A stretch of DNA of 64,000 nt, from assembly GCA_963170155.1 (NCBI GenBank), contig CAUJGP010000023.1, forward strand, positions 1 through 64,000, written 5' to 3'. Position numbers and translations under genes: made by a program. Numbering within the stretch: the first letter of the stretch is position 1; each line of letters begins with the position of its first letter. The stretch comes from Bdellovibrionota bacterium. Lineage in GTDB: Bacteria; Bdellovibrionota; Bdellovibrionia; Bdellovibrionales; Bdellovibrionaceae. The notes under the pieces were generated by a model, which was not told the origin of the DNA, made no database searches, and was given only the letters and a program-made list of their open reading frames with translations. This document shows, one piece after another, positions 46,370 to 48,897 of this stretch.

Positions 46370-46885
46370 ATGAGACATAGAAGACGTGTGAAACATTTTA
46401 GTCGTAAGCAAGGACCTAGAAAAGCTTTGATTCGGGGGCTTGTTGAGTCTCTGGTTGAGCATGGACGCATTAAGACAACAGTTGAAAAGGCAAAAGAGAC
46501 TCGCCGACATGTAGAGCGAGCTATTACTTTGGGGAAAAAGGGAAGTCTAGCTGCCCGCAGATTGATTTTGGCGCGCTATCCTCAAGTTAACGTTATGAAT
46601 TCCATTGTTAATGATCTTTCTGTTCGTTTTAAAGATCGTAATGGCGGATATACTCGTGTTATAAAGTTAGGTAAGCGTCCGGGTGATATGGCAGAGATGG
46701 CCTTTATAGAGTTCGTGGATTACGATTTTGCGGCTAAGTCGGCTGAGAGAGTAGGGAGTGGGAGTTCAGAACCACAAAAGAAATCTAAAGAGAATGTAGT
46801 TTCATCGAAAAAAGCTGTTTATAGAGTGGCAAGGAAAGTTCGAAATAAAATACAGGCTCAATCTCGTCGAGAGAACAGAGCTTAA
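46370..46885 (+). CDS. rplQ: 50S ribosomal protein L17 with C-terminal extension
   Basis: L17 (171 residues) is near the tunnel exit. The core MRHRRRVKHFSRKQGPRKA, and KLGKRPGDMAEMAFIEFVDY, is standard and ends at about residue 123. A 48-residue Ser/Lys/Arg-rich tail (SKENVVSSKKAVYRVARKVR) follows; E. coli L17 has 127 residues. The tail is probably disordered and RNA-binding. A palindrome AGAGCTTAAAAGCTCT spans the stop, then a strong terminator closes the operon. Confidence 0.96.
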   Translation: MRHRRRVKHFSRKQGPRKALIRGLVESLVEHGRIKTTVEKAKETRRHVERAITLGKKGSLAARRLILARYPQVNVMNSIVNDLSVRFKDRNGGYTRVIKLGKRPGDMAEMAFIEFVDYDFAAKSAERVGSGSSEPQKKSKENVVSSKKAVYRVARKVRNKIQAQSRRENRA

Positions 46886-46913
46886 AAGCTCTCTTGATTT
46901 AATAGAGTAAAAT

Positions 46914-46953
46914 AAAAAAGGCACTATCTTGTTTAGAAATAGTGCCTTTTTTA
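46914..46953 (+). terminator. Terminator of the alpha operon
   Basis: GGCACTAT (46920-46927) and ATAGTGCC (46939-46946) form a perfect 8-base stem flanked by AAAAA and TTTTTT. It marks the end of the ribosomal block; the A/T flanks could make it bidirectional. Confidence 0.9.
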
Positions 46954-47001
46954 TTTTAAAAATTTAGTAGACTATAGAAATGAAAAGGATTTCATTAAGT
47001 T

Positions 47002-48897
47002 ATGGTTACAGTTTTTATTGGTCAAAGAGGAACAGGGAAATCATCTTTATTGAAGAGAATGAGTGAATATCTAAAGGGTATTCCTCATGTTTGTTATGAT
47101 CTTGATACCGAAATTGAGATAAGAGAGTCCAAAAAAATTACTGACATATTTTCAAATTATGGTGAGGAGGCTTTCCGCCAACTCGAAAGAAAATACTTTA
47201 AAAATTTAATAGATGAAGGTGTGGGTTTACATCTTAAACTTTCTTCAAGTCAGATTTTTATTGCTGTTGGAGGTGGATTTGATGTGAGCAATCTTCCGTC
47301 TGATTGCAGGGTTGTTTCTTTGTTGAGAGCTAGTGATTCACTTGGGCGCATTTTTTTAGATCGTCCGATACTTGAACCAAAACTTTCTCCTTTGGAGGAG
47401 TTTTTTAAGCGTTATGAGACAAGAAAACTTTCTTTTCAAAATGTTGCATGGGAAGAATATTTGATTCCAGAAGGATTGAATGCTCCTTCTTCTACTGAGA
47501 AAGAGATTTTAGTTGAAAATCCAAAAAATGTTGGAGGCGTTTTAACGCTTTTACCACAGCATTTTAATTCTAAATTAGGGTTTCAATTTTTTATAAGTAG
47601 AAGATTAGAATGGGAGTTAGATTTTTTTGAAATAAGAGATGATCTCCTTTCAGAGAAAGAAATTGAAGAGGCATTAAATTATATTCCAAAAGAGAAAGTT
47701 TTACTAGCCCGTCGAGAAATAAAAAAATTTGAGGATAAATTTTTGAATGAGTTAGAAGCTCAAATAACTCTTATTGATTATGACCGAGAATGCATTTCTA
47801 ACAGCGAGATAACTTCTGTGTCTGGTAATTGTAAAAAAATTATTTCAATCCATTATTTTAGAGAGAAAGAAAATTTATCACTTTTGTTGAAAAATATGGA
47901 AGCTTATGAAGAAAAAGGTTTTCATGTTAAATTAGCGGTTGAAATCAATAATTTCACAGAACTTATTTTAGGGCATCATTGGCAAATGAAAAACCAGATG
48001 CAAAGAAGTTTTTTACCTCGTTCTAGAGATGGCCGCTGGTTATGGTATCGGTTATGGAAAGGGAGATCACAAAGGATTAATTTTTTTAGAGAGGGAACAG
48101 GATCTGCGCCAGATCAGCCCTCTCTTTATCAATGGTTGCAACGAATACAAACCGGCAATTTTTTTGCAGCATTATTGGGTTTTCCGGTTCAACATAGTCT
48201 AACTCCACACTATCAGAGTTCATTTTTTGAAAAAAGAGATATGTCTGTTTTGCCTATTTCAATTCATGAAGAAGAATTTACTCAAGCCTTTGATTTTTTG
48301 AGTGAAATAGGATTATTAGCTGCAGCCGTGACTTCTCCATTAAAGCTCGTTGCCTACGATAATTGTCAGAATACTACGAGCTTAGCTCAAAAATATAAAT
48401 CAGTGAATACTATGGTTAGGAATAAAGCTGGTCAGTGGTTAGGACATAATACAGATGAAGAGGGGTTAATTACATTAAAAGATAAGGCAAAAAAAATAAT
48501 TTATGCAGGTCGTGAAGAAGAAGCAATAATTTTAGATGATTCTTTGAATGAAGAAAAAATTGCTATTTGGGGTGGAGGCGGCACTTTACCCTTATTAAGA
48601 AATATATTTTCTAATGCCGAATTCTTTTCTGCTCAAACAGGTATGTCAAGAGAAGGAAAAGACCTATCTCTTTGGATGCCAGAGATTGTCGTTTGGGCAG
48701 GAGGCAAATTAAAAGAAGAAGGCATTCAATCTCCACCGAGACATTGGCAACCTCGATTGATAGTTGATCTTAATTATCGTGAAGATTCAGGAGGTCGAGA
48801 GTTGGCGTTGAAGTTAGGGTCAGCTTATATTTCTGGGGAAATTATGTTTTACGCTCAAGCTAATGCACAACAAATTTTTTGGCAAAGCCAACTTTAA
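47002..48897 (+). CDS. Trifunctional shikimate kinase / dehydroquinate dehydratase / shikimate dehydrogenase
   Basis: This is a 631-residue fusion of three shikimate-pathway enzymes. Residues 1-160: kinase with P-loop GQRGTGKSS (7-15), DLDTEIE (33-39), FRQLE (58-62), VGGGF (89-93) and RPIL (121-124). About 185-385: type I dehydroquinate dehydratase with FFEIRDD (Glu210), SIHYF (His284), the Schiff-base Lys310 in HVKLAVEI and a late APDQPS. About 390-631: dehydrogenase with PVQHSLTP, Lys448 in TSPLK, Asp485 in NTDEEG and dinucleotide loop GGGGTLP. All key catalytic residues are present, so it could carry dehydroquinate to shikimate-3-phosphate. Order Kin-DHQ-SDH matches the C-terminal half of the fungal arom protein. 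Only a weak, distant AAGG precedes the ATG. Confidence 0.85.
   Translation: MVTVFIGQRGTGKSSLLKRMSEYLKGIPHVCYDLDTEIEIRESKKITDIFSNYGEEAFRQLERKYFKNLIDEGVGLHLKLSSSQIFIAVGGGFDVSNLPSDCRVVSLLRASDSLGRIFLDRPILEPKLSPLEEFFKRYETRKLSFQNVAWEEYLIPEGLNAPSSTEKEILVENPKNVGGVLTLLPQHFNSKLGFQFFISRRLEWELDFFEIRDDLLSEKEIEEALNYIPKEKVLLARREIKKFEDKFLNELEAQITLIDYDRECISNSEITSVSGNCKKIISIHYFREKENLSLLLKNMEAYEEKGFHVKLAVEINNFTELILGHHWQMKNQMQRSFLPRSRDGRWLWYRLWKGRSQRINFFREGTGSAPDQPSLYQWLQRIQTGNFFAALLGFPVQHSLTPHYQSSFFEKRDMSVLPISIHEEEFTQAFDFLSEIGLLAAAVTSPLKLVAYDNCQNTTSLAQKYKSVNTMVRNKAGQWLGHNTDEEGLITLKDKAKKIIYAGREEEAIILDDSLNEEKIAIWGGGGTLPLLRNIFSNAEFFSAQTGMSREGKDLSLWMPEIVVWAGGKLKEEGIQSPPRHWQPRLIVDLNYREDSGGRELALKLGSAYISGEIMFYAQANAQQIFWQSQL

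Follow-up and report, generated by a model that had tools for sequence, protein, structure and literature searches.

The window considered here, the whole 64,000-nt stretch at the start of contig CAUJGP010000023.1 from a Bdellovibrionota bacterium, contains a gene in which shikimate kinase (SK), type I 3-dehydroquinate dehydratase (DHQase) and shikimate dehydrogenase (SDH) domains follow one another in a single reading frame. The gene, its domains and its immediate surroundings comprise the following features.

46370..46885, forward strand: rplQ (ribosomal protein L17), the upstream neighbor, from the list of open reading frames (ORFs) and identified from its sequence
46877-46892: weaker hairpin, from the terminator scan
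46920..46955, forward strand: terminator-like hairpin and T run, GGCACTAT-11 nt-ATAGTGCC, then TTTTTT, as read from the sequence
46986..46990, forward strand: possible Shine-Dalgarno element AAGGA, 11 nt 5' of the fusion ATG, predicted from the sequence
47002..48897, forward strand: gene for a putative trifunctional SK/type I DHQ dehydratase/SDH; ATG start, 631 amino acids (aa), stop included
47002..47526, forward strand: SK domain, aa 1-175; Pfam SKI, E 6.6e-11; GxRGxGK P-loop at aa 7-13, D33/D35, R59, GGG 90-92, R116/R121, R137/R141
47527..48153, forward strand: type I 3-dehydroquinate dehydratase domain, aa 176-384, from sequence and fold matches; E210, R212, R238, E263, H284, K310 (Schiff-base Lys), R350, Q372
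48154..48894, forward strand: SDH domain, aa 385-631; Pfam Shikimate_dh_N, E 2.4e-10; S399, K448, N469, D485, GGGG 524-527, Q619

The upstream neighbor rplQ is the final gene of an rpsM-rpsK-rpsD-rpoA-rplQ cluster and lies outside the shikimate system. The terminator-like hairpin at 46920-46955, overlooked by the terminator scan because its loop is longer than 8 nt, would set the fusion gene apart from this ribosomal-protein operon.

Pfam recognized both outer domains of the 631-aa protein, with SKI at aa 9-73 (43 bits against a cut-off of 22.1) and Shikimate_dh_N at aa 391-470, also over its cut-off; relative to the NCBIfam equivalog cut-offs, the scores of the SK and SDH regions were far too low. 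Pfam DHquinase_I matched neither the window protein nor any of 39 family members. The initial annotation had itself named a domain search without a type I DHQase as evidence that would count against it, and with Pfam this is literally the outcome; NCBIfam, a PDB profile search and the predicted fold, by contrast, all show a DHQase. As the weak point of that first reading, the middle domain was examined separately. The NCBIfam models PRK09310 (bifunctional DHQ/SDH; aa 207-495, E 6.6e-10) and PRK13576 (type I DHQD; aa 206-322) both matched below their cut-offs, and the top PDB sequence match of the window protein was the Arabidopsis DHQ-SDH 2gpt, over aa 198-493. A profile of the middle domain built from 12 relatives returned DHQases as its two best PDB matches (E 5.5e-4 and 0.026).

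AlphaFold modeled the whole protein with a pLDDT of 93.0 and a pTM of 0.91, and the fold of the SDH domain matched Aquifex AroE with a VIA-align Z of 21.3. Since SDH chains filled the VIA-align list for the whole model, the DHQ domain was also predicted alone (pLDDT 90.6); its structural matches at ranks 1-39 were all type I DHQases (Z 13.5-16.5), and the best non-DHQase match was an unrelated TIM barrel (Z 11.8). By predicted fold, the middle domain is unambiguously a type I DHQase, and the miss by Pfam reflects too low a sensitivity of its model. Since Pfam does not detect the DHQase part at all and no NCBIfam model scores it over its cut-off, automated pathway calls could score carriers of the fusion as lacking aroD. 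The assignment of SK, type I DHQase and SDH to one ORF at 47002-48897 is thus borne out by the ORF itself, Pfam, NCBIfam, PDB matches and fold. Plant and chlamydial DHQ-SDH proteins (2gpt; PRK09310) contain the same tandem, and the predicted DHQ and SDH part superposes on plant 2gpt over 420 residues at 3.9 A; the window protein differs from them in its additional N-terminal kinase, an identity of ~20% and a PRK09310 score of 38 against a cut-off of 598 bits.

Conservation of the active sites was assessed across 115 homologues. The P-loop and E210, H284, K310, K448 and D485 were unchanged in all 115, as were G7, G12, K13, D35, R59, G90, G92 and R141 of the kinase, R350 of the DHQase and N469, G524 and Q619 of the dehydrogenase. 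Slightly less conserved were R116 (108/115) and R121 (114/115) in the kinase and R212 (109/115) and Q372 (112/115) in the DHQase. The window protein, therefore, contains the catalytic residues that had been named for its three domains, with one correction: all are invariant, but E210, initially listed with His284 and Lys310 among the catalytic residues, is by homology the Glu in the ElRxD motif that binds the substrate, and E86 of S. typhi, which belongs to the E-H-K trio, more probably has its counterpart in E263. The features that define each enzyme family are present in the window protein, comprising the P-loop, shikimate-binding Asp/Arg, GGG and LID Arg for SK, the TIM-barrel fold, Schiff-base Lys, catalytic His, ElRxD and substrate-binding Arg/Gln for AroD, and the Lys-Asp pair, Asn, C-terminal Gln and Rossmann glycine motif for AroE.

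From these residues we infer that all three domains are catalytic. An imine would form at K310, where dehydroquinate would be dehydrated; NADPH-dependent reduction would come next at the K448/D485 site, and phosphorylation by the N-terminal kinase last, the three sites most likely working in sequence on one polypeptide. Channelling of intermediates, as proposed in the initial annotation, may occur; equal dosage and co-assembly would be reason enough for the fusion. For Chaetomium AROM, the nearest precedent, PMC9074039 reports an in vitro throughput no higher than that of the isolated domains. With SK and SDH far under the equivalog cut-offs and the DHQ domain below Pfam detection, a change of substrate or activity in one of the domains is conceivable.

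The remaining pathway was surveyed in the genome to which the window belongs (2.85 Mb; estimated 100% complete, 0.49% contamination). PF08501 matched only the fusion, indicating no other shikimate dehydrogenase, and no type II DHQase (aroQ) scored over the PF01220 cut-off. PF01487 matched nothing, and no second type I DHQase was detected. PF01202 matched the fusion and one 82-aa frame, leaving no credible second aroK: the latter match, at G000:C28:64254-64358(-), was rejected at 27 bits over 35 positions. This SK-like P-loop match, also represented by L032/L134, may be a vestige or belong to a different small kinase. DHQ synthase (DHQS) and chorismate synthase are present. A further operon (L133:5486-8948), 93 kb from the fusion gene, carries aroA, encoding 5-enolpyruvylshikimate-3-phosphate (EPSP) synthase (EPSPS), together with a chorismate mutase-prephenate dehydrogenase fusion and a DAHP synthase bearing a ferredoxin-like domain. 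In the proposed check of the genome for stand-alone aroK, aroD and aroE, thus, aroD, aroQ and aroE went undetected and no further credible aroK emerged; the remaining pathway is in place, and the fusion would almost certainly supply steps 3-5. In a metabolic model of B. bacteriovorus (PMC7529429), the required amino acids include Phe and Trp but not Tyr, a pattern compatible with a working chorismate pathway.

These data also bear on the possibility that a single domain is dead or acts on another substrate, the divergent DHQase being the likeliest candidate, while an unrecognized enzyme performs the step. The DHQ domain is indeed highly divergent and invisible to Pfam, and there is a precedent in Candida albicans AROM, in which an inactive DHQase domain is replaced by a separate DHQase (PMC9074039). 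Invariance of E210, H284, K310 and R350 speaks against such a loss, as do the failure to detect another DHQase of either type in the genome of the window and the result of a Pfam search for type I enzymes in five other fusion-carrying genomes, which found none. We, therefore, regard a dead or repurposed domain as very improbable and retain the trifunctional reading.

The fusion is widespread among relatives. The family is too divergent for a single-sequence scan of contigs, which came up empty, while an alignment-based scan found it. Among 100 relatives, 92 matched, most over the full length and with 33-45% identity, and a profile run against 369 genomes from the phylum located the fusion across most families of the Bdellovibrio order and only sporadically outside it. 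Among the carriers with names are Bdellovibrio bacteriovorus kdesi (fusion gene at L067:5001-6818) and Bdellovibrio sp. qaytius (L099). An annotation or assembly artefact, in which three adjacent genes are read as one, has practically no probability left: no evidence for it was found, the ORF has no frame break, and the same fusion occurs in complete genomes (NZ_CP102930 and CP025734) and in dozens of independent assemblies, nearly all without internal stops. This conservation across genomes already refutes such an artefact.

Beyond the phylum, a distant three-domain version was detected in Myxococcota, among them Lujinxingia vulgaris (Bradymonadales), with 16 near full-length copies in 379 sampled Myxococcota genomes. 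Examples are L130:3933-5813, L127:2428-4479 and L125:4980-6794; in L125 and L127 the next gene downstream is aroC, and two homologues have His in place of the DHQase Gln. The Bradymonadales, the order of Lujinxingia, have been described as predatory (PMC7460792), and the fusion thus occurs in two groups with predators. In the DHQ tree, the Bdellovibrionota and Myxococcota fusions formed one clade (100/100), with the DHQases of plants, of AROM and of stand-alone type all falling outside it, so that both sets share one origin, by descent or transfer. The three-domain fusion is, therefore, real and no one-off, being the norm in the Bdellovibrio order and present in part of the Myxococcota.

The genomic context of the fusion in relatives is usually an aroB-aroA-aro(K.D.E)-aroC operon. 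Of 70 named loci, 49 had aroB upstream and 40 had aroC as the next gene after the fusion, while aroA directly preceded the fusion in 50 and was joined to it in frame in five; among 53 unfused pairs of aroA and fusion gene, 33 overlapped by 4 bp. In B. bacteriovorus kdesi, the operon (L067:2784-7843) contains three consecutive ATGA stop/start overlaps, at aroB/aroA, aroA/fusion and fusion/aroC, and a DAHP synthase is encoded 3 kb downstream on the opposite strand. The window lineage is unusual in that its fusion gene stands alone behind rplQ; as the fusion stands behind aroA in relatives, the gene in the window is displaced from the usual aro operon. A different arrangement was found in L057, from another family of the same order, with the separate genes aroA-aroE-aroC-aroK-aroB-aroQ and a type II DHQase.

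Four-domain EPSPS-SK-DHQ-SDH proteins of ~980-1140 aa are encoded at L040:2489-4801(-), L041:2002-4935(-), L042-L046, L100, L112 and L123. Pfam places EPSPS ahead of SK and SDH in these proteins, with an EPSPS-kinase linker of 0-12 residues. On the family tree, a quick reconstruction with many weak forks, the EPSPS fusion required three changes, and EPSPS was apparently joined independently at least three times. DHQS was not fused to the fusion in any copy seen. Several candidates for further domains were dismissed: aroB adjoins the L112 gene unfused, so that L112 is not a five-domain protein, and the first 356 aa of its ORF are another gene read out of frame; likewise, the upstream part of the ~1000-aa ORFs of L029, L006 and L081 is a different gene out of frame.

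Together, these patterns make it highly probable that the fusion replaces aroD/aroQ, aroE and aroK, that it had a single, operon-born origin and that its likeness to eukaryotic AROM is convergence. The fusion would have arisen once, ahead of the diversification of the Bdellovibrio order, and would be common to a subset of Myxococcota including Bradymonadales or have been transferred to or from them. Its birthplace was most likely an aroB-aroA-aroK-aroD-aroE-aroC operon, in which single-base indels at the 4-bp stop/start overlaps would turn neighboring genes into fusions, a putative route that would later have added aroA (EPSP synthase) by the same step in at least three lineages. The likeness to AROM would then be convergent.

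As initially noted, the kinase-DHQ-SDH order equals that of the C-terminal part of AROM. This likeness admits another explanation, namely that the bacterial fusion and AROM go back to one fusion event, AROM deriving from a bacterial EPSPS-SK-DHQ-SDH protein, with AroB added in eukaryotes, or the bacterial form resulting from reverse transfer. The order aroB-aroA-aroK.D.E, shared by operon and fusions, corresponds to the AROM domain order DHQS-EPSPS-SK-DHQ-SDH; AROM chains were the best PDB sequence matches of both profiles and the best Foldseek matches; the SDH tree placed AROM beside the fusions (94/93), on partial AROM sequences; and the DHQ tree was compatible with a joint clade of fusions and AROM (p-AU 0.119). 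The top PDB rank was dropped as a sign of kinship, as AROM ranks first because the scores of several domains add up. Taken singly, SDH scored 51 bits against AROM and 81 against Aquifex AroE, and SK ~50 bits against AROM and 68 against the Aquifex kinase, while mean pairwise scores per domain put AROM no closer than bacterial enzymes. In the EPSPS tree, moreover, the AROM domain nests among E. coli-type enzymes, and uniting it in one clade with the EPSPS of the Bdellovibrionota was rejected (p-AU 0.025). A branch of 2.1 changes per site splits the two groups in the DHQ tree, and the domains are placed differently in the predicted model (rmsd 18-19 A over AROM domains). On balance, a shared fusion event appears unlikely, and the narrower proposal that eukaryotic AROM, at least its SK-DHQase-SDH part, descends from a bacterial fusion like this one appears quite unlikely; if true, the bdellovibrionid order aroB-aroA-aroK.D.E would be a relic of the ancestral gene order. 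The suggestion of convergent fusion in the initial annotation, thus, gains support from the EPSPS tree, while the DHQ and SDH trees do not settle the matter, and convergence with eukaryotic AROM is the favored reading of the sequence comparisons.

Bifunctional AroK-AroB, bifunctional AroD-AroE and eukaryotic AROM are established shikimate-pathway fusions. Like AROM/Aro1 (6hqv, 7u5s and 7tbv), the window protein holds SK, type I DHQase and SDH in this order on one chain and would work like the C-terminal three domains of AROM. AROM carries EPSPS in front, as do some relatives of the window protein, whereas the window protein starts at the kinase; its DHQ and SDH domains are shorter and their predicted placement different. 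Because it lacks DHQS and EPSPS, we do not file it as AROM. AroK-AroB proteins (PRK13951 and PRK14021) resemble the window protein in their N-terminal SK, but the partner is DHQ synthase rather than DHQase/SDH, and the 43-bit match to the window protein covers the kinase part only. Escherichia coli AroK, AroD and AroE and the L057 aro cluster are expected to catalyze the same reactions as separate proteins, in L057 with a type II DHQase.

Shikimate enzymes covering at least three steps are held to be typical of fungi, apicomplexans and other protists, while plants and bacteria typically have separate ones (PMC9074039). We found no description of bacterial SK-DHQ-SDH or EPSPS-SK-DHQ-SDH proteins in the open-access literature searched. 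A protist paper (PMC7052976) names prokaryotes, in passing, among the organisms that have AROM, and Richards et al. 2006, the main paper on AROM evolution, lies outside this search; priority is therefore uncertain. A bacterial order, thus, has a cryptic three-step enzyme, in some members a four-step one, and an operon in AROM order. Separate genes, overlapping genes, a fusion of three and a fusion of four form a natural series in which one can test how an AROM-like enzyme is built up step by step and whether fusion brings the benefit claimed for it.

Individual loci deviated from the common pattern. In L105:1602-4259, the fusion ORF reaches 886 aa through in-frame inserts, namely one of ~100 aa inside the kinase and tandem copies of a KGFCLANFPNVLNFHNQNK-like unit, and looks like a case of a repeat element inserted in frame. 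Expanded or broken fusion copies were observed in G263 and G247. Lastly, the fusion and aro operon of L072 (titled Streptomyces griseus) and L081 (titled Planctomycetota) fall among those of Bdellovibrionota, and the record names of these metagenome bins are, therefore, probably wrong.
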